Below are positions 16,449 to 47,257 of a DNA stretch of 50,779 bases, piece by piece. Every line of letters begins with the position of its first letter. Position 1 is the stretch's first letter. The position numbers and the translations under genes were made by a program. The notes below the pieces were generated by a model, which worked only from the letters and a program-made list of their open reading frames with translations, was not told the DNA's origin and did no database searches. This stretch comes from a virus: positions 1 through 50,779 of IMG/VR virus record IMGVR_UViG_3300047560_000810. The stretch is one strand, 5' to 3'.

Positions 16449-17813
16449 ATGGTTAAGGTAATCGTAGCCAAAGAAAAATTAGACGCATCTCACTTGCTAG
16501 GTCAGTTTGTGGACGAGCGTCATTATGATGTTCTTGTTGAAGAAGATTGTGATGTATATGCACCACCAGACTGCGATCTGGGTGATCAGGCGGTTTGCAC
16601 TAGCGACTGTAACACTTGCTCTAAGGGTATGGATGAGCGCAAGATTATCTTTAAGTTTCGCAAGAACTACTTCACTAAAGAAGAACAGGATGCTGCATAT
16701 CTTGGTCTGAGAGAAGCTGCAGTTGAAACTCAGAATCGCGGTATTGCTGCTGGTCCACGTGGTGAGAAGCTAGGTAATCGTGAGTGGGTTACTGACTATG
16801 AGTATGATATCATCGACTTCTTCTCAAACCCTAAAGCCAACATTATGGGTACTGATCCAGTCGAAGAGATTAAAGCTGCTCACGCTGGTAAGGCAACTCA
16901 GCCATCTAATAAGAACAATGTCTGGGGTATTCAGGCTGTTAAGAAAGACAATTTCGTCTTCGAAGATTGGGTCGAGGCTACTCGTAAGTTAATGCCTGAT
17001 GAACAACGTGCAGAAGCTAAGCGTATCGTAAACAAGTATGTTTGCGCAACTACTTACGCTAACGGTGTGTTCTCTGGTATTGCTGGTTGGTTTGATCGTT
17101 ATCCACGTATCCCTTATGGTCGTGCGACTTCTTACACTGAGAAGAACCCAGAGAAGTTTGCGATGGCTTTCCCATTCCTACAAACTCTGGCTGCTGGTTT
17201 CAAGGATCTTCTTCCTTGGAGATACAACAACCAGATGGAAGCTGCGAAGAAGTTGGACTCTCGCTACCTAGTCCCTGGAACTCCGTTCACTACTATCACT
17301 GTGAACAAGACTTTCCGCACTGCTGCTCACTATGACGCAGGTGACTTGGACACTGGTTTGTCTAACCTTCTGGTTCTGTCCAACAACGGTAACTACAAAG
17401 GTGGCTACTTAGTTGCTCCTGAGTACCGTGTTGCTGTCAACGTTCGTCCAGGTGACCTACTGCTGATCAACAACCACGAAGTTATGCACGGTAACACTCC
17501 AATCGAAATGTTGGACGAAGAAGCAGAACGTGTTTCTTTGGTTTGCTACTTCCGTGAGAATATGCTACAGTTGGGTAGCAAAGACTACGAAGACTGCCGT
17601 TACGAATTCGTTGAAGGTCGTCGTTTGAACAAGGAACATCCAGGACATAAGAACGAAGACGGTTCTGAGCGTCATCTATGGAACGGTGTTTCATCTGGTA
17701 TGTGGGAGTCTGAAGAGTGGTATGAATATTGTGAGTCTAAACTAGGTCGCGAAAACCTATTGAAGTATCACCCAGAAGCTGAGAAGGCTAATAGCCTCGA
17801 AGGGTTCTTCTGA
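16449..17813 (+). CDS. TET/JBP-like Fe(II)/2OG dioxygenase (putative DNA pyrimidine hydroxylase)
   Basis: 454 residues. ATG 16449 follows AAGGAG; a longer in-frame extension overlaps the helicase gene and lacks a ribosome binding site. Core: AAHYDAGD with His294 and Asp296, GNYKGGYLV, GDLLLINNHEVMHGN with His347 (His343 nearby), and ERVSLVCYF with Arg361. This order and the wording match the TET/JBP clade, which oxidises 5-methylcytosine or thymine in DNA. The N-terminus has a Cys cluster (Cys34, 42, 50, 54, 57), probably metal-binding. The neighbours (kinase, amino acid:DNA transferase-like, amidotransferase, GNAT) support a role in base hypermodification. Confidence 0.7.
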   Translation: MVKVIVAKEKLDASHLLGQFVDERHYDVLVEEDCDVYAPPDCDLGDQAVCTSDCNTCSKGMDERKIIFKFRKNYFTKEEQDAAYLGLREAAVETQNRGIAAGPRGEKLGNREWVTDYEYDIIDFFSNPKANIMGTDPVEEIKAAHAGKATQPSNKNNVWGIQAVKKDNFVFEDWVEATRKLMPDEQRAEAKRIVNKYVCATTYANGVFSGIAGWFDRYPRIPYGRATSYTEKNPEKFAMAFPFLQTLAAGFKDLLPWRYNNQMEAAKKLDSRYLVPGTPFTTITVNKTFRTAAHYDAGDLDTGLSNLLVLSNNGNYKGGYLVAPEYRVAVNVRPGDLLLINNHEVMHGNTPIEMLDEEAERVSLVCYFRENMLQLGSKDYEDCRYEFVEGRRLNKEHPGHKNEDGSERHLWNGVSSGMWESEEWYEYCESKLGRENLLKYHPEAEKANSLEGFF

Positions 17814-18409
17814 TGGAAGTTCTGGAAATCTTTCCAGAGCCTTTGTATAAGGGGAAGATAACATTCAGCGATGAAGAGTTATCTTCTCTGGCTTCTATCA
17901 GAGCCAGTGGTGAGTATAGCAATACGTATGGAAACACTACATCGAACGACAGCGCTGTCTTAGATAGAGTTGATTCCCTAAGAGAAAAGGTTCAGCAACA
18001 TCTGAACACTTATCTAGATAAGGTGATGGGTGCTTCTGGAGTCTCACTGGAGATCACCCAATCGTGGATGAACTTCAATGAGTATAATACTTCTCACCAT
18101 ACACACATACACGTAAACAGCATTGTGAGTGGAGTGATTTACCTATCACCAAATCCAGCACCGTTCATGGTGTTTAGAAAGCAGGACAACTATCCGTTGC
18201 GTCCGCTGATAAGTAAGATGACACCTTACAATTCACCGATGCGTTCTATTGATGTTGAGCAGGGAGACATTATTTTGTTCCCTTCTCAAACGCCCCATGG
18301 GGTGAATGTGAATAACACCAGAGAGACTAGAATCTCTTTGGCGTTCAATACTTTTTATAAAGGTGTTTTGGGTAGCAAGAAAAACCTAACTCACTTGGAG
18401 ATTCTATAA
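17813..18409 (+). CDS. Fe(II)/2OG oxygenase of the phage TIGR02466 type
   Basis: 198 residues, sharing its first base with the preceding stop. TSHHTHIHVNSIVSGVIYL carries the first ligands (His98/His100 region), GDIILFPSQTPHGV carries His162, and TRETRISLAFN carries Arg173 for 2-oxoglutarate. The family places an H-x-H-x-N block where others have H-x-D. Homologues are common in aquatic phages; the substrate is unknown. Its place directly after the TET/JBP-like gene suggests it acts in the same pathway. Confidence 0.75.
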   Translation: MEVLEIFPEPLYKGKITFSDEELSSLASIRASGEYSNTYGNTTSNDSAVLDRVDSLREKVQQHLNTYLDKVMGASGVSLEITQSWMNFNEYNTSHHTHIHVNSIVSGVIYLSPNPAPFMVFRKQDNYPLRPLISKMTPYNSPMRSIDVEQGDIILFPSQTPHGVNVNNTRETRISLAFNTFYKGVLGSKKNLTHLEIL

Positions 18410-19125
18410 TGTGTTCTGTAATTGGCGCGATTATTCAAAAGCCAACTGTTGATGATTTCGAGATGCTTAAGCGCGTCTTCCACGAGTCTCGTATTCGTGG
18501 GATGCATGCGACAGGCATCTCCTTTTTGCCTAAGTGGTCTAAAGGAATTGAAACTATCAAAGAGCCTATCCCTGCTGATCAGTTCATTGAGAAGTTCATG
18601 CACAACGATAACCTTCGCGATATGGTCAACGAAGATGGTAACCTTTACCTAGTCGGTCACTGTCGTTACAGCACTTCTGATCTCGAGTATAACCAACCGA
18701 TCTACAACTCTTTTATTAGCGTGGTTCACAACGGTGTTATCACTCAAGAACTTCCAGAGAACTGGGAGAAGCTATACGGTTACAAGTGTGAGGGTAAGAA
18801 CGATACCGAACTCTTGCTACATACCTTCGGTCATGGTGAATCTCCTCTGTTGAAGTGGAAGGATTCTTCCCTTGCAGTCTGTATGCTTGGAAGAACCAAG
18901 TCGCTTACAGTGTTCCGTAATGGCAAGCGTCCGTTATATTTGACATCTAGACCCAATGCGTGTATAATTACCTCTACTGCCGATGTTGTAAAACGAGCAG
19001 GTATTGAAGATCCAACTACTCTAATTGCAATGAATACATACTTCAGATTCGATTCTGATTTGTGTATGATGGTTGAACAAGAAAAAATTGATGGCGCAGT
19101 CGACTTACAAAATGTTATTCATTAA
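18409..19125 (+). CDS. Class II glutamine amidotransferase (Ntn hydrolase)
   Basis: 238 residues. The protein begins MCSVIGAI, so removal of Met exposes Cys2 as the N-terminal nucleophile. GHCRYST (83-89, with the glutamine-binding Arg) and VVHNGVI (105-111, oxyanion Asn-Gly) are the conserved class II motifs. NDTELLLHTF contains the glutamine-binding Asp. No synthetase domain is attached, so ammonia must be passed to a partner or the domain transfers an amine on its own. The operon context suggests DNA-base modification. A promoter for the next genes lies at 18940. Confidence 0.8.
   Translation: MCSVIGAIIQKPTVDDFEMLKRVFHESRIRGMHATGISFLPKWSKGIETIKEPIPADQFIEKFMHNDNLRDMVNEDGNLYLVGHCRYSTSDLEYNQPIYNSFISVVHNGVITQELPENWEKLYGYKCEGKNDTELLLHTFGHGESPLLKWKDSSLAVCMLGRTKSLTVFRNGKRPLYLTSRPNACIITSTADVVKRAGIEDPTTLIAMNTYFRFDSDLCMMVEQEKIDGAVDLQNVIH
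18940..18968 (+). promoter_or_regulatory. Consensus sigma-70 promoter inside the amidotransferase gene
   Basis: TTGACA (18940-18945), 17 bp, TATAAT (18963-18968), perfect in both boxes. It would give the GNAT, transferase and kinase genes expression separate from the oxygenases. Confidence 0.7.
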
Positions 19126-19753
19126 CTCAACAAAAGTCCAACAGATTATCGATGAAAGTCCAGCTGGTAGGAACACCAAGTTCTTATCGGCTGCACATTC
19201 ATTGTGGACTAGATTTCACAACTACGAGAAAAACTTACCGATGGCTCTTGAAGACAACGGTGAGATCGTCTCATTGATCTTCGCTACATTCAATCGTGAT
19301 GGCTACGCTAACCTTTACGAGATTGTTACGGTAGAAGGAAAAGAAGGAAAAGGTTATGCGTCGAAATGCTGGGATGCGTGGATCAAATACGCAGTCGAAG
19401 AACGAAACGTCAAACGCCTCAAAATATCATGCACACCAACGTCTGTCACTTGGCACTTACGGAATGGTCTGGTGTTCTGGGCAGTTGACCCCACTGGTTC
19501 ACTCCGCAGCGACCAACCACTATTCGCTACACGCGCAGAACAGATCGCATGGCGGGACAAAGCCATCGTCTACCCACTACAATCTTTACCTCCACAAAAA
19601 GCGCGAGAGCAATTCCGACGCGAAGGATTAGAATCGTACACGTGGGGTGATAAGAAGAAAGCCAAGACTCAGGAAGCTATCGACTATGTCGGTAAGGCTT
19701 GGTTGCGTGAAGCATTGATGGAACAACCGTCACTTGAAGACTTTTTGAAATAA
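19112..19753 (+). CDS. GNAT-like acetyltransferase of the modification operon
   Basis: 213 residues from ATG 19112, the start with the smallest overlap (14 bases) with the upstream gene; ATG 19091 and a TTG at 19073 are alternatives and none has a good ribosome binding site. The core YEIVTVEGKEGKGYASKCWDAWIKYA holds the acetyl-CoA loop GKEGKGYAS (76-84), followed by VKRLKISCTPTSVTWHLRNGL. The C-terminal 90 residues are an extension ending EQPSLEDFLK. Stand-alone GNATs accompany hypermodification enzymes in other phages. Confidence 0.7.
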   Translation: MLFINSTKVQQIIDESPAGRNTKFLSAAHSLWTRFHNYEKNLPMALEDNGEIVSLIFATFNRDGYANLYEIVTVEGKEGKGYASKCWDAWIKYAVEERNVKRLKISCTPTSVTWHLRNGLVFWAVDPTGSLRSDQPLFATRAEQIAWRDKAIVYPLQSLPPQKAREQFRREGLESYTWGDKKKAKTQEAIDYVGKAWLREALMEQPSLEDFLK

Positions 19754-20772
19754 TGGATTACAGAGAAAAACAGAATCGTCGTGAGGCGTTCATTCGTTGG
19801 TATGCTTGGTCATTGAAGTATGATGATTGTGATCCAGCAGTCTGGGCTACCAACTACCTGAACAAACGCTACGAACATAACACTGAGCAGAAGCTATGGC
19901 TTTGCTGGTTGTACGGTAACACCTACTACCTGCCAACTGCTTGGGTTCTGATGAATGAATTTCCAGACTACGAACTAGCCACTGTAGATCGTATGGAGCA
20001 GTGGAACACTGCCAACTACAAACGTCTGCGCTATCAGACTGATACAAAGTGGAACAAGGGGCATCTCCCTGCAATGTTCGAGTCGTATCATAAGTTTATC
20101 GGTAACAAAACACAACGCGAGGTATTGGAGTCATATTATGGTGATACAGAAGAACAGTCATTTACCAATCTTTGGGAAGGCGTTAAAGGTAGCCTCCACA
20201 AGTTTGGTCGTTACTCTACTTGGTTTTATCTTCAGCATCTTAAGCATACCGCTGGTATTCGGATTAGCCCTACTTCACTTATGCTTGATGATTTTGATGG
20301 CTCTCGTAGCCATCGTAACGGGCTTCTTCTCGCCCTTGGAAAAGATGACAAATACGATGCGAAACTTACTGGAGCAGAGTATGTATATCTGGAGCAAGAA
20401 GCCAAGTCCATCTTGGATGAAACGAGAGCGAGATTCCCAACAATAAGTGATCAGGTAGACTTCTTCACAATGGAAACCTGCCTGTGTTCATTCAAGAAGA
20501 TTTTCCGTGAACACCATGGACGTTATCTGGGTTACTACCTAGATCGTCAGGCTGAAGAGATTATGAAGTGCGAGGGCGACGAGTGGTATGGTATCGAATG
20601 GCAGGTAATGTGGGATGCCCGAAACGAAACCATCGACCTGCGTTTGGATAATAAGAAGGGTATTGATAAGGAGAGATTCTCATCCTTTGTCAATACTGGT
20701 AAGTTAGAGAATCTGGAATGGATGTTCAATGATGAGCAACCAGTTCTAGTTGGTTTGGAAGCATTTGCTTAA
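19753..20772 (+). CDS. Putative amino acid:DNA transferase (alpha-glutamyl/putrescinyl-thymine pyrophosphorylase-like)
   Basis: 339 residues, TAATG overlap with the GNAT gene. All-helical, with conserved blocks WSLKYDDCDPAVWATNYL, NTEQKLWLCWLYGNTYYLP, TDTKWNKGHLPAMFESY, KFGRYSTWFYLQHLKHTAG and MLDDFDGSRSHRNG. These recall the phage amino acid:DNA transferase group, which replaces a pyrophosphate or phosphate on 5-hydroxymethylpyrimidine with an amino acid or polyamine. The next gene encodes a P-loop kinase, the usual partner that activates the hydroxymethyl group. Assignment is from memory of the family pattern and from context. Confidence 0.55.
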   Translation: MDYREKQNRREAFIRWYAWSLKYDDCDPAVWATNYLNKRYEHNTEQKLWLCWLYGNTYYLPTAWVLMNEFPDYELATVDRMEQWNTANYKRLRYQTDTKWNKGHLPAMFESYHKFIGNKTQREVLESYYGDTEEQSFTNLWEGVKGSLHKFGRYSTWFYLQHLKHTAGIRISPTSLMLDDFDGSRSHRNGLLLALGKDDKYDAKLTGAEYVYLEQEAKSILDETRARFPTISDQVDFFTMETCLCSFKKIFREHHGRYLGYYLDRQAEEIMKCEGDEWYGIEWQVMWDARNETIDLRLDNKKGIDKERFSSFVNTGKLENLEWMFNDEQPVLVGLEAFA

Positions 20773-20781
20773 GGATATAAA

Positions 20782-21390
20782 ATGTCATTTGTAGATAAGT
20801 TAGGCGTACAGGATCAGATCGAAGTTAAGCTGATCAAGAATACTTTGAAAACCCGTAAGATTATCGCGGTTGGTGGTCAGCCTGGAACTGGCAAGACTAC
20901 TCTCTTCCGTAAGTATATGGAAGGTAAGGACTGGATCGTTGGTGAGCCAGCCAAACTGGTTTCTGCTTCCTACAATGCAGAACGCGACCTATATGTTCTC
21001 GGTAAGTACGAGGAAGGTGAAACCTTCGCTGGAACCGACCGTCTTTCTATGGCAGTCCAGCCTCCTCTTCAAGAGTGGATCTCCTCAAATAACTGTAACA
21101 TCCTCTTCGAAGGTGACCGAGTCTTCAACCAGTCTTTCCTAGAGTTTTGTATGAGTCTCCCGAACACTGACCTTCAGGTGGTCTATTTGAAGGCTCCGAA
21201 GGATCTCCTAGAACAACGCTACAAGGAACGAGGCTCCGATCAGTCCGAGCAATTCCTAAGAGGGCGCGAGACTAAATATAGTAATCTACTATCGAATTTT
21301 GACTTGATGCCCTATATTACTGAGTTTAGTAACACTAACTTACAGGAGCAAGCGAAAGTCCTAGCCTTCTTTGATCAACATCTAGGTTGA
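20782..21390 (+). CDS. P-loop kinase, putative hydroxymethylpyrimidine DNA kinase
   Basis: 202 residues. Walker A is GQPGTGKTT (32-40). NCNILFEGDRVFN is the Walker B-like strand. LQVVYLKAPKDLLEQRYKERG and LRGRETKYSNLL supply lid and base-recognition arginines, as in small-molecule kinases. Phage 5-hydroxymethyl-dU DNA kinases are of this P-loop type and sit beside amino acid:DNA transferases. A nucleotide kinase role is an alternative. Confidence 0.65.
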   Translation: MSFVDKLGVQDQIEVKLIKNTLKTRKIIAVGGQPGTGKTTLFRKYMEGKDWIVGEPAKLVSASYNAERDLYVLGKYEEGETFAGTDRLSMAVQPPLQEWISSNNCNILFEGDRVFNQSFLEFCMSLPNTDLQVVYLKAPKDLLEQRYKERGSDQSEQFLRGRETKYSNLLSNFDLMPYITEFSNTNLQEQAKVLAFFDQHLG

Positions 21391-21412: not shown

Positions 21413-22105
21413 ATGAATTTCCTAGAAACAGCTAATTTCGACTGGATGGATATGCTCAATTTCTATGAGCGTCCATTTAGAGCTAAACTCATCCCTGCAA
21501 AAATCTGGAGAGACTTAGACGAGTATGAAAATGACTCGTCTGGTCTCTCAAACTATTTTAGGAAGTGGAAAACTAGAATAGAGTTTAGAGATCCTCCGAA
21601 GAAGACTTGGTCTAAATACGTGGCTGTCGGTGGGGAGTATGCTCCAGACGAACGTCAGTGCACCATCCACATCTACACAACCAACTTCGATAAATATACG
21701 TTTACTCAGAAGACTTGGGATAAGTTTAAGTATCGTGTCATCCAGACTCTGATGCACGAGATGATCCACTTTATGCAGTACGATCGTCGCTACGACGAAG
21801 ACAGTAAGTATGTCGTACCATATAAGAGAGTCGGTCATTCTCTCAAAGATGCCGAGCGTAGATACCTTTCTGAATTTGATGAGATTCAGGCATACGCCCA
21901 CTGTGTGTACCTAGACTTCAAAATGAAGAAGCCTAACATCCCAGTACAAACCCTACTATTGAGATGTAAGACCTACCGCGACTCATCCACTCTCCACTAT
22001 TTCTTGAAGACGTTCAACTACGACTTCAGAAACAACATCTCCCCTCAAAAGATCATCCAGCAGATCGCCAAGTGGGATAGAAAGTATTCTAAACGCTTGA
22101 CATAA
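21413..22105 (+). CDS. Zincin-type metallopeptidase-like protein
   Basis: 230 residues, with RBS AGGGAGCT. LMHEMIHFMQYD has HExxH (His115, Glu116, His119), and LSEFDEIQAYAH downstream offers the third ligand (Glu154 or Glu157), as in gluzincins. No signal peptide. It may process a phage or host protein, but some phage HExxH proteins are of unproven activity. The -35 of the next promoter overlaps its stop codon. Confidence 0.7.
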   Translation: MNFLETANFDWMDMLNFYERPFRAKLIPAKIWRDLDEYENDSSGLSNYFRKWKTRIEFRDPPKKTWSKYVAVGGEYAPDERQCTIHIYTTNFDKYTFTQKTWDKFKYRVIQTLMHEMIHFMQYDRRYDEDSKYVVPYKRVGHSLKDAERRYLSEFDEIQAYAHCVYLDFKMKKPNIPVQTLLLRCKTYRDSSTLHYFLKTFNYDFRNNISPQKIIQQIAKWDRKYSKRLT

Positions 22106-23471: not shown

Positions 23472-24320
23472 ATGAAAGATTACAGACAATTTCTGAAGCA
23501 ATTACCGTCAAAGACTGTCGTTCTAGCCTGTGGGAAGTTTAACCCTCCAACACTAGGTCACGAACTCCTAGTCAAGACTGTCAAAAAACTGGCTGAGTCT
23601 AAGAACGCAGACCACGTAATCTATGCATCCAATGTAAGCGATGCGAAAAAGAATCCTCTAGTCGTAGAAAAGAAACTCCAGTATCTTGATCTGGTGTTCC
23701 CGAAAACCAACTTCAAAGAGTCTGGTGATAACATCGGGGAAATCGTCAAGAGCCTAAGAGAACATTATAAGAACATCGTTGTAGTCACTAGCTCAGACAA
23801 GGTTAACTCTCTAAAGAAGTTGAACGTTGAGGCTGTAGTTATTGGCGACAAGGATCCAGACAGCGAAGACTCTACAAGAAGTCTTGCTGCAAAGGGTTTG
23901 TATGAAGAGTTCAAGAAGAACCTTCCTACTTCCATTCGTGAATTGGATAGTCGTCGTTTGATGAACGACATTCGAGTTGGTTCTGGTATGGAGCCAATCA
24001 AAGAACAGATTAACTTGGTGAAGAACGAATTGAGAGAACAATACTTCAGAGGCGAGATCTTTAATGTGGGCGACATCGTTGAATGTGCAGGCACAGAGTA
24101 TGAGATTGTAAAGCGAGGTTCAAATCATTTGCTTTTGAAGTGCTCTGAGGGTAAACTTATCTCTAAGTGGCTCCAGGAAGTTAAGCAGGTAAAAAAGTCT
24201 CAAATTAAAATGAAGACTGGTGAGAAGTCTATCCCAGCTGAGAATGGTACAGTGCCACTCAACGGTAAGCCATTCGATCCGTTCTTCAAGGAATCCTTCA
24301 AAGAATGGAGAACAAAATAA
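23472..24320 (+). CDS. Nucleotidyltransferase with capsid-targeting-like N-terminus
   Basis: 282 residues. The cytidylyltransferase-like (HIGH) motif is GKFNPPTLGHELL (21-33), where PTLGH is the nucleotide-binding T/HxGH. VVVTSSDKVN and GDKDPDSEDSTRS continue the Rossmann-type domain. The first residues (MKDYRQFLKQ) resemble the T4 internal-protein signal MKTYQEFIAE, shared with neighbours. Residues 190-282 form a separate domain with FNVGDIVECAGTEYEIVKRG, SH3-like. It sits right after a late promoter and may be packaged in the head. Substrate unknown. Confidence 0.75.
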   Translation: MKDYRQFLKQLPSKTVVLACGKFNPPTLGHELLVKTVKKLAESKNADHVIYASNVSDAKKNPLVVEKKLQYLDLVFPKTNFKESGDNIGEIVKSLREHYKNIVVVTSSDKVNSLKKLNVEAVVIGDKDPDSEDSTRSLAAKGLYEEFKKNLPTSIRELDSRRLMNDIRVGSGMEPIKEQINLVKNELREQYFRGEIFNVGDIVECAGTEYEIVKRGSNHLLLKCSEGKLISKWLQEVKQVKKSQIKMKTGEKSIPAENGTVPLNGKPFDPFFKESFKEWRTK

Positions 24321-24757
24321 TGGATGAGTTGGTAACGTCCCTGAGAATTGCACTGGCAAATACATTCGTAATGTATTTCAAAGTGCATCAGTTTCATTGG
24401 AATGTGGAAGGCGCAGACTTTCCACAATGGCATGGTTTCCTAGGAGACCTGTATGAAGATGTGTATGGTGCAGTGGATCCTCTTGCGGAGAACATTCGTA
24501 AGTTAGATGCATATGCTCCACGTACTTTAGAAGAGATGTGGAATCATAAGACTATCCCAGAAACAACTGGTGATGTTAAAGATATCCAAGGAATTCTAAA
24601 TGAAATTCAAAAGGCTAACCTAGAAGTACTCGCAAGTCTGAAGAAGGCTTACGATCTAGGTGAGGAAAATAAAACCTACGGGCTATGTAACTTCTTGGCG
24701 GATCGTATCGATACCCACGAAAAGCATAGCTGGATGTTAAAGGCGTCAATGAAATGA
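24320..24757 (+). CDS. dps: Dps-like ferritin
   Basis: 145 residues from ATG 24320 (TAATG overlap), with GGAG 9 bases upstream. The Dps ferroxidase signature is complete: HW at 26-27, His38, Asp53 and Glu57 have exactly the 12/15/4 spacing of E. coli Dps. The dodecamer oxidises and stores iron and can shield DNA. It lies among genes for putatively packaged proteins and may protect phage DNA or control free iron during infection. Confidence 0.9.
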   Translation: MDELVTSLRIALANTFVMYFKVHQFHWNVEGADFPQWHGFLGDLYEDVYGAVDPLAENIRKLDAYAPRTLEEMWNHKTIPETTGDVKDIQGILNEIQKANLEVLASLKKAYDLGEENKTYGLCNFLADRIDTHEKHSWMLKASMK

Positions 24758-25932
24758 AGACATTTATCTCTTTCTTAAAAGAAGAAGCGGAAGCAGAAGG
24801 TGCTAAGCTAAAGCACATTCACCATGCAGAGGATCGCCCTCTAATGCATGGTCATGAAGGTTTCGAGCATGCACATGGTGCGCTAACTCAAGCCCATGAG
24901 CACATGAAAGCTGGTCACAAGTCCAGCGGTCTGACTATGAAGTACGATGGTTCTCCATCTGTTGTTTACGGTCACCACCCAGAGTCTGGTAAGTTCTTCG
25001 TTGCATCTAAGTCTGCCTTTAACAAGAACCCTAAGCTAAACTATACTCACGAAGACATTCAAAAGAACCATGGACATGCTCCAGGTCTAGTTGATAAGCT
25101 AGGTGCTGCACTAAAGCATCTACCAAAGGTTGCTCCTAAGAAGGGTGTTTATCAAGGTGACATCATGCACAGCGGTGATGTTGAACACCACAAGAGCGGT
25201 AACGTCTCTTTCAAACCAAACACTATTACCTATACAGCTAAGGGCGATCAGGCTAAGGCTCACAAGGAAGCTAAGCTAGGTGTTGTTACTCACACCAAGT
25301 ACGAAGGTAAGGACATGGCTTCTATGAAGGCTACTCCTCACGTTAGCGACTCTGAGTTCAGCAAGCACAAAGACGTTGCTCACCACACTGCTGAACACGA
25401 TACTTCTAAGATTAGCTATCCACAGAAGGCTCAGGAAACATTCCACAAGCACATGAGTGCTGCCAAAGATATCCACGATACTCATGGCGCAAAGATGTAT
25501 TCAGCTACAGAAAAGCATCGTGGTGAAAATTCCCACATGACTACTTACATCAATAGCACTGTTAAGAACGATCAGGTTCCATCTGCTAAGGGTTTCCAAG
25601 AACACATTAAGTCTCAAGGTGAGAAGGCTGCTGCTAAGGTTAAGACTGAGAAGTCTCAAACTGCAAAGCGCGCAGAAGCTGCAGAACATGTATCCCACGT
25701 AGAAGCCAACAAAGAGCACTACGGTAATCTGTTCTCAATGCACCACCACCTACAACAAGCAAAGAATACTCTAGTTAAACACCTAGAAACTCACGAAGGT
25801 GGTTATGAACACCACATTAATGACACTAAGTCTAAGCCAGAAGGTTTCGTTGTTAATCATAAGAATGAGCCAACTAAGTTGGTAAACCGATCTGAGTTCG
25901 CTAAGGCTAACTTACTAAAGGTTAAAAAGTAA
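24754..25932 (+). CDS. Covalent nucleotidyltransferase-like (ligase-fold) protein, His-rich, capsid-targeting-like N-terminus
   Basis: 392 residues, overlapping dps by 4 bases. TMKYDGSPS contains KxDG (Lys63, Asp65, Gly66), the motif I of ATP/GTP-dependent ligases. VYQGDIM (132-138) fits motif III, PEGFVV (362-367) motif IV, and TKLVN (374-378) motif V. The protein is strikingly rich in His and Lys. The N-terminus MKTFISFLKE|E resembles the T4 capsid-targeting signal with its L-x-E cut site. It may be an RNA or DNA ligase delivered with the genome. Fold inference is from motif order only. Confidence 0.6.
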   Translation: MKTFISFLKEEAEAEGAKLKHIHHAEDRPLMHGHEGFEHAHGALTQAHEHMKAGHKSSGLTMKYDGSPSVVYGHHPESGKFFVASKSAFNKNPKLNYTHEDIQKNHGHAPGLVDKLGAALKHLPKVAPKKGVYQGDIMHSGDVEHHKSGNVSFKPNTITYTAKGDQAKAHKEAKLGVVTHTKYEGKDMASMKATPHVSDSEFSKHKDVAHHTAEHDTSKISYPQKAQETFHKHMSAAKDIHDTHGAKMYSATEKHRGENSHMTTYINSTVKNDQVPSAKGFQEHIKSQGEKAAAKVKTEKSQTAKRAEAAEHVSHVEANKEHYGNLFSMHHHLQQAKNTLVKHLETHEGGYEHHINDTKSKPEGFVVNHKNEPTKLVNRSEFAKANLLKVKK

Positions 25933-26543
25933 TGTTATCATTCCTTTCATTCCTAAAAGAAAGCGCGAGCGAGAAACACGGCGTTCTCGCTTTCGGTCGT
26001 ATGAACCCACCTACTGCTGGTCATGAGCAGGTAGTCAATAAGGTTCACGAAGTTGCTAAAGAGCATGGTGGTGAACACCATGTGGTTCTTTCTCACTCTC
26101 AAGATAAGAAAAAGAATCCTCTACCAGCAGATCGTAAGGTTGAGCATGCTAAGAATGCTTTCCCTGGAACTAACATCTCTGCTGCTTCAAAAGAGAAGCC
26201 GACTATTCTGCACCATGCTGCAGATATGCACAAAGCTGGAATCAAGCACCTACACGTAGTTGCTGGTTCTGATCGCCACGAGGCAATGCACGAACTACTA
26301 CATAAATATAATGGACAAAAATCTGCTCACGGTCATTATAATTTTAAGTCTATTACAGTGCACTCTTCTGGAGATCGCGATCCAGACTCTGAAGGAACAA
26401 GCGGTGTCTCTGGAACTAAGATGCGTGAACATGCCGCAGCAGGAAACAAAGAAGAATTCCACAAACATCTCCCGTCCAAAATGAAGGGAGAGCACAGAGA
26501 TGCTTTGTTCCACGATTTACGTAAGCATATGGGGCATGACTAA
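25932..26543 (+). CDS. NMN/nicotinate adenylyltransferase-like nucleotidyltransferase with capsid-targeting-like N-terminus
   Basis: 203 residues, TAATG overlap. GRMNPPTAGHEQVV (22-35) is the HIGH-type motif, VVAGSDRHEAM lies in the middle, and GTSGVSGTKMREH is the ISxTxxR-like motif that binds phosphates. This matches small NMNAT/NadM-like enzymes making NAD or a related dinucleotide. The N-terminus MLSFLSFLKE|S resembles the T4 head-targeting signal and is not needed for the fold. It may be packaged and act on NAD metabolism early in infection. Confidence 0.7.
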   Translation: MLSFLSFLKESASEKHGVLAFGRMNPPTAGHEQVVNKVHEVAKEHGGEHHVVLSHSQDKKKNPLPADRKVEHAKNAFPGTNISAASKEKPTILHHAADMHKAGIKHLHVVAGSDRHEAMHELLHKYNGQKSAHGHYNFKSITVHSSGDRDPDSEGTSGVSGTKMREHAAAGNKEEFHKHLPSKMKGEHRDALFHDLRKHMGHD

Positions 26544-30238: not shown

Positions 30239-31270
30239 ATGTTATACATTGATGCAAAGTATGCACTACTACTAGGCAGTCGCCTACGAAATTTCAAACA
30301 AAAGAAAGATTACAATTGGAACTTTTCGTGTCCATTTTGTGGGGATAGCACAACCAACAAATTGAAGGCGCGTGGATACCTTTATCGTTCCAAAGCAGAT
30401 CTTCTCTACAAATGCCATAACTGTGGTAAGGGTACTAACGTAGGCAACCTTATCAAGTATGTGGACTCTAAACTTTATGATGAGTATGTTCTTGAACGCT
30501 ACAAAGCTGGCGCTACAAGATACAATGATCACAAAGACGTTAAAGAAACTAGCGTCATTCTAGAATCTCCCAAAGAAGAATTGCTCGAGGATGATATCCT
30601 TTCCTCTCTAACGAGAATGGATAAGTTACCACTCACCCATCCTGCTTTGAAGTATCTGATTGATCGTAAGTTGCCTAGAGATAAGTGGAAGCTACTTTAC
30701 TTCGCTCCTAAATTTAAACAGTACACTAACACAGTCACTCCTAAGTTTCAAGAGCCGATTGAAGGTGAACACCCTCGACTAATCATCCCTTACTTTACTG
30801 CAGCGGGTAAGTGTTTCGCTTATCAGGCTAGAGCGTTTGGTGATGAACAGCCGAAGTATTACATGATCAAAGTGGATGATAATGAGGAGAAAGTATATGG
30901 ACTCGACAGAGTTGACTTCAGTAAACGAATCTACGTGGTGGAAGGACCAATTGACTCTTTGTTCCTCCCGAACTGCGTGGCTGTATCAGGAAGCAGTTTT
31001 GATACCCCTAGTGTTCGTAGGATCCTTGCTAATGCTACGTTAGTGATGGATAATGAGCCTCGCTCAAAAGAAATAACCAAATTGCTTGCCAAGAATATCA
31101 AGGCTGGTTATAGTGTTTGTATGTTCCCTGAACATATCGAACAAAAAGATATCAATGATATGATTAGGGACGGTGGAATGTCGGTGGACCAGATAATGGA
31201 AACGATAAATACAAATACCTTTTCAGGGATTGAAGCGGAATTAAGATTTAGCACATGGAAGAAAGTATGA
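30239..31270 (+). CDS. 61: DNA primase, gp61-like
   Basis: 343 residues (T4 gp61 is 342). The N-terminal zinc-binding domain is SCPFCGDST (Cys31, Cys34) and YKCHNCGKG (Cys59, Cys62). The TOPRIM part shows RIYVVEGPIDSLFLPN, with the catalytic Glu, and LVMDNEPRS, with the metal-binding acidic residues. It makes RNA primers for lagging strands with the gp41 helicase. It has its own promoter with a hairpin that may control translation. Confidence 0.93.
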   Translation: MLYIDAKYALLLGSRLRNFKQKKDYNWNFSCPFCGDSTTNKLKARGYLYRSKADLLYKCHNCGKGTNVGNLIKYVDSKLYDEYVLERYKAGATRYNDHKDVKETSVILESPKEELLEDDILSSLTRMDKLPLTHPALKYLIDRKLPRDKWKLLYFAPKFKQYTNTVTPKFQEPIEGEHPRLIIPYFTAAGKCFAYQARAFGDEQPKYYMIKVDDNEEKVYGLDRVDFSKRIYVVEGPIDSLFLPNCVAVSGSSFDTPSVRRILANATLVMDNEPRSKEITKLLAKNIKAGYSVCMFPEHIEQKDINDMIRDGGMSVDQIMETINTNTFSGIEAELRFSTWKKV

Positions 31271-31950
31271 AAGTAAAATTGATTAGTTATAGCAAACCAT
31301 CTCGTGAAATGTACGATGAAGGTTTGATGGATGCGCAGGAGTTAGTTGCGTTCTGCGCCCGAGTGAGCAATCCCAGCAACCAGTTCAACACCGACACAGC
31401 AGACAAGCTAATTCGCTACTTGATCAAGAACAAGCACTGGTCTCCTCTCGAGATGGTTAGCGTTTGTCTCGAAATCGAAACCACACGTGATATCGCTCGT
31501 CAGATTTTACGTCATCGCTCTTTTTCATTCCAAGAATTCTCCCAACGTTACGCAGACCCAACTAAGGATCTTGCCTTTGTCGTGCGCGAAGCCCGACTAC
31601 AAGATAGCAAGAACCGCCAGAACTCTACAAAGTTAGACCTATCGCGAGATGATCATCGCCAACTAGCGTATCAATGGGAAAATCTGCAGCAAAACCTAAT
31701 CAACCAAGCACGTGAAACCTACGCATGGGCTGTTGAGCATGGTATTGCTAAAGAGCAAGCGCGAGCAGTTTTGCCAGAAGGTAACACTGTTAGCCGTATG
31801 TACATGAACGGCACACTCCGCAGCTGGGTTCATTATATTGAACTGCGCAGAGAAAACGGCACACAAGAAGAACACAGAGACATCGCTGTCGCATGCGCTA
31901 AGGTTATCGCCGAAGCGTTCCCAATGGCTGATGATCTTTTCAATAATTAA
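31267..31950 (+). CDS. thyX: Flavin-dependent thymidylate synthase ThyX
   Basis: 227 residues from ATG 31267, in an ATGA overlap with the primase stop and preceded by GGAAGAAAGT; ATG 31255 is an alternative. The ThyX signature RHRx7S is present (Arg82, His83, Arg84, Ser92) in RHRSFSFQEFSQRY. EARLQDSKNRQNS and LPEGNTVSRMYMNGTLRSW..LR complete the dUMP and FAD sites. It converts dUMP to dTMP. Phages with base-modified DNA often carry their own thymidylate enzyme; this one makes plain dTMP. Confidence 0.95.
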   Translation: MKVKLISYSKPSREMYDEGLMDAQELVAFCARVSNPSNQFNTDTADKLIRYLIKNKHWSPLEMVSVCLEIETTRDIARQILRHRSFSFQEFSQRYADPTKDLAFVVREARLQDSKNRQNSTKLDLSRDDHRQLAYQWENLQQNLINQARETYAWAVEHGIAKEQARAVLPEGNTVSRMYMNGTLRSWVHYIELRRENGTQEEHRDIAVACAKVIAEAFPMADDLFNN

Positions 31951-46295: not shown

Positions 46296-46722
46296 TGCCT
46301 TCATGGATACGGCTGAACGTTTTGCTCAGTTGTCGTCTGCTAAACGTCTAAAGGTTGGTGCTGTTGTCGTTAAGGACAACCGTATCATCTCTATCGGTTA
46401 CAATGGAACACCTTCTGGTTGGGACAACGAATGTGAATACATAGAGTATGATGACAATGGTGATCCACTCGGAACAAAAACCAAACCAGAAGTGATCCAT
46501 GCCGAAGCGAACGCTATCGCTAAGCTGGCTAAATCTAATGAGTCTGGTCAAGGCGCAGACATCTTCATCACCCATGCTCCATGCATTGATTGTGCCAAGA
46601 TGATCTACGGTGCAGGGATTAAGAACGTCTGGTATCGAAACTCGTATAGAAACGATGATGGGTTGCAGTTCTTACAGAAGTGTGATGTTAAAACAGGTAA
46701 AGCGACTAATGATAAGACATGA
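46276..46722 (+). CDS. cd: dCMP deaminase
   Basis: 148 residues from ATG 46276, overlapping the oxygenase gene by 20 bases. Zinc and catalytic motifs are VIHAEANAI (His75, Glu77) and HAPCIDCAKMI (Cys103, Cys106). N-terminal SAKRLKVGAVVVKDNRIISIGYNGTPSG is typical. It converts dCMP to dUMP, which ThyX then methylates. It is shorter than T4 Cd (193). Confidence 0.93.
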   Translation: MKQKWIDAFMDTAERFAQLSSAKRLKVGAVVVKDNRIISIGYNGTPSGWDNECEYIEYDDNGDPLGTKTKPEVIHAEANAIAKLAKSNESGQGADIFITHAPCIDCAKMIYGAGIKNVWYRNSYRNDDGLQFLQKCDVKTGKATNDKT

Positions 46723-47257
46723 TCTATGGGCAACGCCAGTGTGGGAAGTCCCAACTGGCTTTGACGCGAAATTTAATAATCAACTTCTAGCAGAGATCTC
46801 TAAAATTCAGGCAGTCCCTGGATCTAACTTCAATCTGTGGAACTACGCCGACAATACCGAGTGTATAAGTAAGTTACGAGAAACAATTCTCAAGGAGATC
46901 GGTGAAGCGGTTAAGGAAGACATCCCCAATGGTAAGATGGTTCTAACACGCGGATGGGTCAATCACCATAGACCTGGAACTTCTCTTGTCACACATAACC
47001 ATGGCAACACCATTATTGCCTGTACCTACTACGCCAAAGCGCCGAAGGGGTGTGGTGACTTACTTCTGATTGATCCGCGTGGTGGATCCAATTGGGGGTG
47101 GGAAGTTGAAGGTCAGATCGGTGGTGTGAAGCACAAACGCTTTACTCCAAAAGAAAGTTCTCTTGTTTTCTTTCCTGGATTCCTACTTCATTCAGTAGAA
47201 GAAAACAAGTCTAGTCAGGTGAGAGTAAGCATCTCATCTAATTTAATTTTTGCTTAA
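46709..47257 (+). CDS. Fe(II)/2OG oxygenase of the phage TIGR02466 type
   Basis: 182 residues from ATG 46709; ATG 46685 is an in-frame alternative. TSLVTHNHGNTIIACTYYAKAP holds the first ligands (His96/His98), FFPGFLLHSVEEN holds His161, and SSQVRVSISSN holds Arg172. DLLLIDPRGGSNW between them is characteristic of this family. It is the second such protein here (compare 17813-18409). Substrate unknown. Confidence 0.75.
   Translation: MIRHDLWATPVWEVPTGFDAKFNNQLLAEISKIQAVPGSNFNLWNYADNTECISKLRETILKEIGEAVKEDIPNGKMVLTRGWVNHHRPGTSLVTHNHGNTIIACTYYAKAPKGCGDLLLIDPRGGSNWGWEVEGQIGGVKHKRFTPKESSLVFFPGFLLHSVEENKSSQVRVSISSNLIFA

Follow-up and report, generated by a model that had tools for sequence, protein, structure and literature searches.

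A conserved gene cluster predicted to make hypermodified thymine in the DNA of a T4-like environmental phage

The window analyzed here is the whole of IMG/VR viral contig IMGVR_UViG_3300047560_000810 (50,779 bases), in which end repeats were looked for and none were found. Its replication core is T4-like, coding for gp43 polymerase, sliding clamp, clamp loaders, RegA, UvsX, gp41 helicase, gp61 primase, ThyX, and NrdA/B, with a polymerase that shares about 54% identity with those of cyanophage relatives; the source is a T4-like environmental virus infecting bacteria. Directly behind the gp41 helicase gene, within the replication region, lie six coupled genes on the + strand (16449 to 21390), for which the reading we favor, at a probability of about 0.74, is an operon making hypermodified thymine in replicated phage DNA by reactions predicted from relatives. 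The genes, their key residues, and one context gene outside the operon are as follows:

16449 to 17813, + strand: TET, a TET/JBP-family 2-oxoglutarate (2OG)-Fe(II) oxygenase (Tet_JBP, PF12851), 454 amino acids (aa), predicted pyrimidine 5-methyl hydroxylase acting on DNA
17328 to 17336, + strand: TET H294-x-D296 codons, Fe(II) ligands, invariant in nine diverse phage TETs
17343 to 17345, + strand: TET Asp299, aligned with TET2 Asn1387 and NgTet1 Asp234
17487 to 17489, + strand: TET His347, third Fe(II) ligand, invariant in the same nine
17529 to 17531, + strand: TET Arg361, 2OG-binding arginine, invariant in the same nine
17813 to 18409, + strand: OG2, a second 2OG-Fe(II) oxygenase, 198 aa, accessory (2OG-FeII_Oxy_5, E 4e-18)
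18409 to 19125, + strand: GAT, a stand-alone class II glutamine amidotransferase domain, 238 aa (GATase_6, E 5.2e-10)
18412 to 18414, + strand: GAT Cys2, catalytic nucleophile, from conservation among relatives
19112 to 19753, + strand: GNAT (type c5), 213 aa, an alternative tailoring cassette (Acetyltransf_1, E 1.6e-5)
19753 to 20772, + strand: ADDT, amino acid:DNA transferase, 339 aa, all-helical (PF18724, E 4.5e-22)
20782 to 21390, + strand: KIN, a P-loop kinase (Ploopntkinase3, PF18751, E 2.8e-8), predicted hydroxymethyl-pyrimidine DNA kinase
20875 to 20898, + strand: KIN Walker A motif GQPGTGKT, at least 97% conserved
31255 to 31950, + strand: ThyX thymidylate synthase, outside the operon (phrog_85, E 1.9e-72)

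A preliminary description of this stretch had recognized six adjacent, overlapping open reading frames, and their place and strand are correct, with each family confirmed by Pfam; all six matches exceed the curated cut-offs, those of the kinase and GNAT being weak. The overlap holds for most junctions, with stop and start codons overlapping at 17813, 18409, and 19753, but not before KIN, which follows a small gap. The best start for GNAT is the ATG at 19112, in agreement with its relatives and giving a 14-nucleotide overlap with GAT, and AGGAG/AAGGA-like sites are present upstream of 16449 and 20782. All six genes are under purifying selection, with dN/dS of 0.03 to 0.24 against relatives where it could be computed, and the recurrence of this gene set in over 90 contigs of IMG/VR excludes a chance arrangement.

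TET matches Tet_JBP with an E value of 1.5e-27 (96.2 bits; cut-off, 34.9), and the first PDB fold matches of its AlphaFold2 model (pLDDT 87) are human TET2, Naegleria NgTet1, and CcTet (E 5e-10), with CMD1 also among the best and all four at about 1e-8 or better. Profile and fold thus bear out the TET/JBP-like assignment of the 454-aa protein, and with H294, D296, H347, and R361 invariant in the phage alignment, it is a predicted 5-methyl hydroxylase of a pyrimidine in DNA by analogy with characterized relatives. Homologous genes of phages Cr30, DLP6, S-CBWM1, and HTVC112P (L160 12001-13329, L161 12001-13347, L163 3729-5165, and L169 5644-6552, in our numbering of loci) carry the misleading database name 'SNF2 DNA repair protein'.

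ADDT, which the preliminary description had likened to amino acid:DNA transferases, is supported as such by both its profile match to PF18724 (79.3 bits; cut-off, 26.2) and its fold; a homologue in phage Vi01 shares 27% identity over 93% of the protein. Across the entire PDB, the all-helical model (pLDDT 80) is matched with confidence by a single protein, PaMx11 gp46/PUGT (8z2n and 8z2m; probability 1.00, TM 0.54 relative to the query and about 0.61 relative to the target), which is the 5-phosphomethyl-2'-deoxyuridine glycinyltransferase of a Pseudomonas phage. This fold-level evidence points to a predicted transferase whose substrate is a phosphomethylated pyrimidine, in particular the deoxyuridine (dU) form. 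PDB sequence searches with ADDT, using either the single sequence or a profile, gave no useful relative, and the link to the PaMx11 structure came from fold alone; ADDT relatives were also sought in bacterial and archaeal genomes and none were found, providing no clue to the host. At two loci (L269 2054-4195 and L270 6835-9003), ADDT carries a fused N-terminal domain with a weak match to a pyridoxal phosphate enzyme family (PALP), and TET and kinase genes adjoin.

KIN matches Ploopntkinase3 with 34.0 bits (cut-off, 27), its Walker A motif is conserved among relatives, and homologues are present in Cr30 and in Methylophilales phage Melnitz; by analogy it is likely to be a hydroxymethyl-pyrimidine DNA kinase. 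The kinase gene of mycobacteriophage Fortunato (L167 2863-3462) is labeled 'terminase small subunit', as is PHROG 800 (phrog_800), despite its Ploopntkinase3 match (E 1e-72) and its location directly after ADDT. A 140-aa protein of unassigned family lies between ADDT and the kinase in most relatives (about 70 loci, e.g., L154 11017-11439) and is absent from the window.

GAT has Cys2, Arg86, Asn108-Gly109, and Asp132 conserved in at least 97% of nonredundant members, which we take to be the catalytic residues of an active glutaminase, as in the class II amidotransferase family. By Pfam, its 238 aa contain the glutaminase domain only, with no fused synthetase domain. GNAT is a weak match to Acetyltransf_1 (25.6 bits; cut-off, 20.7) and has a conserved GxG-like loop, although the PDB holds no close relative; PDB sequence searches with GAT, GNAT (single sequence and profile), and KIN gave no useful relative. 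OG2 is accessory, lying between TET and GAT in only 8 of about 94 loci, and it was rejected as the hydroxylase in place of TET because so few loci have it. A further gene of the same Pfam family (2OG-FeII_Oxy_5, E 1.8e-15) is present at 46610-47257, distant from the operon. The roles proposed below for GAT, GNAT, and OG2 draw on weak precedent and are predictions by analogy, as is the identity of the attached group, for which there is no direct precedent.

The operon was compared with relatives collected from IMG/VR, taking the best 80 of 502 matching encoding stretches in one scan and another best 80 in a second scan with ADDT; the locus counts describe these samples, and the contigs are not certified complete. 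The core of the clade is TET-GAT-ADDT-KIN, since among the 95 distinct contigs with both TET and KIN, all 95 have ADDT, 94 have GAT, and none has any of these on the opposite strand. The loci L151 and L152 keep the core, but their flanks lack the T4 replication genes detected at other loci, and in L144 to L147 TET is behind the kinase rather than in the lead position; these differences in flanks and gene order argue that the genes form a functional unit and do not simply reflect inherited synteny.

The interval between GAT and ADDT is filled by one of two strictly alternative modules. Among 121 distinct contigs that span it, it holds a GNAT of the window type in 74 and an amidoligase (c6) in 47, with no contig having both and none having neither. 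Of 13 amidoligase members, 12 match Amidoligase_2 (best E, 7.5e-9), and the GxExE, HxH, and EFR motifs are invariant; the amidoligase is always partnered by either a second, different GNAT (39 contigs) or a low-molecular-weight phosphatase (8 contigs), never both. Rarer extras in the relatives include a radical SAM enzyme, a TET-associated glycosyltransferase, a ParB-like protein, and, once, a tryptophan-halogenase homologue. In sister phages (L065, L076, and their kin, and also L074 and L075), whose TETs are 71 to 73% identical, the whole GAT-GNAT-ADDT-KIN segment is absent, and the genes behind TET instead code for a nucleotidyltransferase (CTP_transf_like) and a glycosyltransferase of group 1; L062, a related row in which TET likewise precedes a nucleotidyltransferase and a glycosyltransferase, falls within the window clade in the TET tree. 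This replacement of the entire second stage is read most simply as TET providing a hydroxymethyl handle and the phages swapping what goes on it. The halogenase homologue (L092 10139-11614; E 7.9e-93) is within a TET-GAT-amidoligase-ADDT operon that also codes for a glycosyltransferase-like protein, and a halogenated base or appendage is conceivable at that locus.

The substrate of TET could be thymine or 5-methylcytosine (5mC), and the preliminary description preferred thymine oxidized in situ, as no methylase or hydroxymethylase is present in the window. That premise now extends to 34 window-clade contigs, 8 of them large (including six of 162 to 174 kb, a T4-like size) and 26 further ones: the cytosine C5-methylase family PF00145 is absent from 34 of 34, with matches in both of two Melnitz-type positive controls, and PF00303, which includes the dUMP and dCMP hydroxymethylases and ThyA and is present in Cr30, is absent from the same 34. 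ThyX is present in seven of the eight large contigs, consistent with ordinary thymine going into DNA. Melnitz-like TETs, collected in a separate scan, have an adjoining C5-methylase in 66 of 71 loci and ADDT in none, whereas window-clade loci have ADDT in 137 of 159 and a C5-methylase in none, and methylase-linked and window TETs form distinct clades in the TET tree. Thymine is thus the better candidate substrate because of this two-clade contrast and the match of the ADDT fold to an enzyme acting on 5-phosphomethyl-dU, and in situ thymine oxidation is favored over 5mC as the predicted chemistry, in line with the earlier preference.

Several points weigh against it, and the rival is a cytosine route, in which TET would oxidize 5mC made by a host or unrecognized methylase and the kinase and ADDT would act through 5-phosphomethylcytosine to yield an amino-acid-bearing cytosine. 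The split between methylase and ADDT is one evolutionary observation, essentially a contrast of two clades; the 34 contigs are metagenomic and of uncertified completeness; 5mC could come from a host methylase; and the ADDT fold match is at only 12 to 14% identity. In the predicted pocket, the alignment pairs Asp299 with Asp234 of NgTet1, a residue hydrogen-bonded to N4 of 5mC, and Arg369 with Arg393 of CcTet, which contacts O2 (PMC11040006), so that Asp299 would also suit 5mC and the pocket residues appear to give thymine no preference. An aspartate is, however, found at position 299 in nearly all phage TETs examined, methylase-linked or otherwise, and its presence in methylase-linked TETs means that this position fails to discriminate T from 5mC. 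A homologous kinase in phage Melnitz (35% identity), beside a C5-methylase and TET, indicates that the kinase family is possible in a cytosine setting. With no C5-methylase in either the 34 contigs or the 159 loci, no ADDT among the 71 methylase-linked loci, and an ADDT fold match that acts on 5-phosphomethyl-dU, we regard the cytosine route as improbable.

The positions of TET2 Asn1387 and His1904 were considered as a predictor of substrate and rejected as diagnostic, the former because aspartate occupies it in both clades. The His1904 position is arginine in nearly all nonmethylase TETs and aspartate in Melnitz-type TETs, but its published role (O2 contact, PMC11040006) cannot separate T from C. 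Three window-clade TETs (L092, L124, and L125) differ from all their relatives in that their two base-contact residues are Asn and His, as in human TET2. The Melnitz locus (L168 4010-8090) and about 70 IMG/VR contigs (L171 to L241), with a C5-methylase beside TET and a homologous kinase in 27, probably represent a separate system for hypermodifying cytosine; no Pfam family matches the 427-aa neighbor in Melnitz.

The thymine pathway builds on the observed families, folds, intact active-site residues, conserved operon, and lack of rival hydroxymethyl sources, and its hydroxylation, phosphorylation, and transfer steps are modeled on characterized relatives. ThyX would supply dTMP, ordinary thymine would be polymerized into DNA, and TET would then hydroxylate its 5-methyl group there. 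The Ploopntkinase3 enzyme would phosphorylate the hydroxymethyl group to give 5-phosphomethyl-dU, and ADDT would swap the phosphate for the amine of an amino acid. GAT and GNAT may finish the base in either of two ways, with glutamine-derived ammonia and an acyl group tailoring the attached amino acid, or with ammonia from GAT passing to ADDT to form an aminomethyl base for acylation by GNAT; the appendage may be hydroxylated by OG2. The final base would most likely protect phage DNA from restriction and CRISPR nucleases. The second half of this scheme has precedent in M6, ViI, and phiW-14, which start from 5-hydroxymethyl-dUTP and in which 5-hydroxymethyl-dU (5hmdU) is phosphorylated by a DNA kinase prior to modification or amine transfer (PMC6449724).

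The two proposals for GAT divide the thymine reading between them, their likelihoods being shares within it that overlap it. In the somewhat better supported proposal, still short of even odds, GAT and the GNAT or amidoligase make up an amide-forming tailoring unit that acts on the ADDT-attached amino acid, at either its carboxylate or its amine. GATase_6 and Amidoligase_2 modules are known in LUZ24-like phages, Ka1, and Sinorhizobium phage phiM6, and a CmoY-type class II glutaminase fused to an AMP-forming ligase is the proposed ammonia source for amidation of a DNA base (PMC12783734); GNAT-type operons, including that of the window, nonetheless have no recognizable ATP-dependent ligase and therefore lack a carboxylate-activating step, barring an unusual ligase function of the GNAT-fold protein. 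If GAT instead feeds ammonia to ADDT, which we think rather unlikely, the core product would be 5-aminomethyl-dU, whose amine the cassettes (GNAT, or amidoligase together with either a second GNAT or a phosphatase) would cap with various acyl or aminoacyl groups. Because GAT belongs to the core and GNAT and amidoligase strictly alternate, its partner should be a core enzyme; the glycosyltransferase-type sisters lose GAT along with ADDT and KIN. The PaMx11 enzyme, however, is a glycinyltransferase, there is no direct precedent for an ADDT using ammonia, and characterized ADDTs reportedly take amino acids as substrate. The product has a counterpart in 5-NmdU (5-aminomethyl-dU), a phage base according to the title of Wen et al. 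2024 (cited in PMC11946847), but LUZ24-like phages pair GATase_6 with Amidoligase_2 and an ATP-grasp protein without TET or ADDT, and GAT may thus serve amide formation.

A target other than the phage's own DNA, such as tRNA or host DNA, or a decaying acquisition, is very improbable. A 5-hmdU DNA kinase domain is validated in bacterial defense systems (PMC13092281), and therefore these families are not exclusive to self-modification, but purifying selection, intact active sites, the fixed location beside the gp41 helicase gene in the replication region, and homologues that act on DNA throughout all speak for hypermodification of the phage's own DNA.

Among known systems are those of actinophages, namely Rhodococcus phage Tonitrus and mycobacteriophage Fortunato with its near relatives. 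Tonitrus has TET-like, aGPT-PPlase2, and 5-hydroxymethyluracil kinase genes annotated together (PMC11955845), and Fortunato has a Tet_JBP-like frame (a subthreshold Pfam match at E 1.8e-5, improving to E 4e-14 with our own profile), ADDT, and a kinase of the same Pfam family as KIN in a row. Fortunato nevertheless is a different phage type with a ParB-like gene, its proteins are very diverged (the ADDTs are 27.6% identical), and no glutaminase, GNAT, or amidoligase was found within the stretch examined. Salmonella phage ViI and Pseudomonas phages M6/PaMx11 (with 5-NeOmdU, 5-NedU, glycinyl-T, and 5-NmdU) share with the window a kinase followed by ADDT-type transfer on DNA, but produce their 5hmdU as a nucleotide by means of a thymidylate synthase-family hydroxymethylase (PMC6449724, PMC11946847), a hallmark of the M6/ViI-type pool route that was not encountered in the 34 window-clade contigs; the ViI kinase also belongs to another Pfam family (HMUD2). 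Melnitz-type loci have a homologous TET (23% identity to the window's) and in 27 of 71 cases a homologous kinase, but they have an adjacent C5-methylase and lack both ADDT and a glutaminase. The cultured T4-like Caulobacter phage Cr30 has TET (50%), ADDT (27 to 30%), and kinase (39%) homologues within about 9 kb, but the genes are spread out, there is no glutaminase, and it codes for a ThyA-type thymidylate synthase and a weak match to a TET-associated glycosyltransferase. With Cr30 TET as the IMG/VR query, Cr30 itself was the sole match, and a literature search on Cr30 DNA bases found nothing usable. The modules of LUZ24-like phages and phiM6 resemble the alternative cassette of the relatives in combining a class II glutaminase with Amidoligase_2, but are unreported with TET, ADDT, or a hypermodification kinase. 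CmoX/CmoY systems likewise place an amino acid or ammonia as an amide onto a base in DNA, with a glutaminase domain in one ligase class, but their cytosine handle comes from a C5-methylase homologue using Cx-SAM and no oxygenase is involved (PMC12783734).

The hypermodification operon proposed in the preliminary description therefore stands in its families and folds, whereas the combination of TET, ADDT, and kinase is already known from Tonitrus (PMC11955845) and Fortunato, and OG2 is accessory. What appears to be new is the glutaminase in the core, the strictly alternative GNAT and amidoligase cassettes between GAT and ADDT, and the exchange, in the sister phages, of the entire second stage for a nucleotidyltransferase and a glycosyltransferase. 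No report was found of the trio with a glutaminase or alternating cassettes, or in T4-like phages, in a search whose scope did not extend to Iyer 2013, Lee 2022, Burke 2021, and Wen 2024. It is tentatively suggested, as something a little less probable than not, that these phages make an undescribed family of thymine derivatives, in which TET and an amine or amino acid added with the aid of a glutamine-hydrolyzing partner are combined with alternative cassettes (GNAT; amidoligase and GNAT; amidoligase and phosphatase; or nucleotidyltransferase and glycosyltransferase replacing the second stage) to give phage-specific bases from one locus, which could then be likened to a serotype-switching system for DNA.

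If the thymine reading is correct, hypermodified thymine would arise from ordinary thymine in finished DNA and end in an amino-acid or amine graft, and judging from their genes, the T4-like phages examined appear to use no modified nucleotide pool. Synthesis of base J in kinetoplastids also starts from thymine in finished DNA. Because methylase-linked and ADDT-linked TETs separate so cleanly, the long-standing question of T or 5mC for phage TETs can be tested directly, and the core trio in cultured Cr30 puts the experiment within reach. The alternating cassettes suggest that phages trade DNA 'capping' chemistries at one locus and point to enzymes worth testing as new DNA-tagging tools, and the lineage is abundant, with the 502 encoding stretches coming from a single IMG/VR scan.

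Several other genes in the window are of note. The gene next to the kinase (21413-22105) codes for a protein with an HExxH-like motif (LMHEMIHFM) and subthreshold Pfam matches (SprT-like, E 0.06), and it is retained in nearly all relatives, glycosyltransferase-type ones included. Cytidylyltransferase-like genes (23472-24320 and 25932-26543) are present on either side of a gene for a DUF6267 protein (24754-25932), and three tRNA genes (Gln, Lys, and Lys) are located at the right end of the contig (50333-50779).

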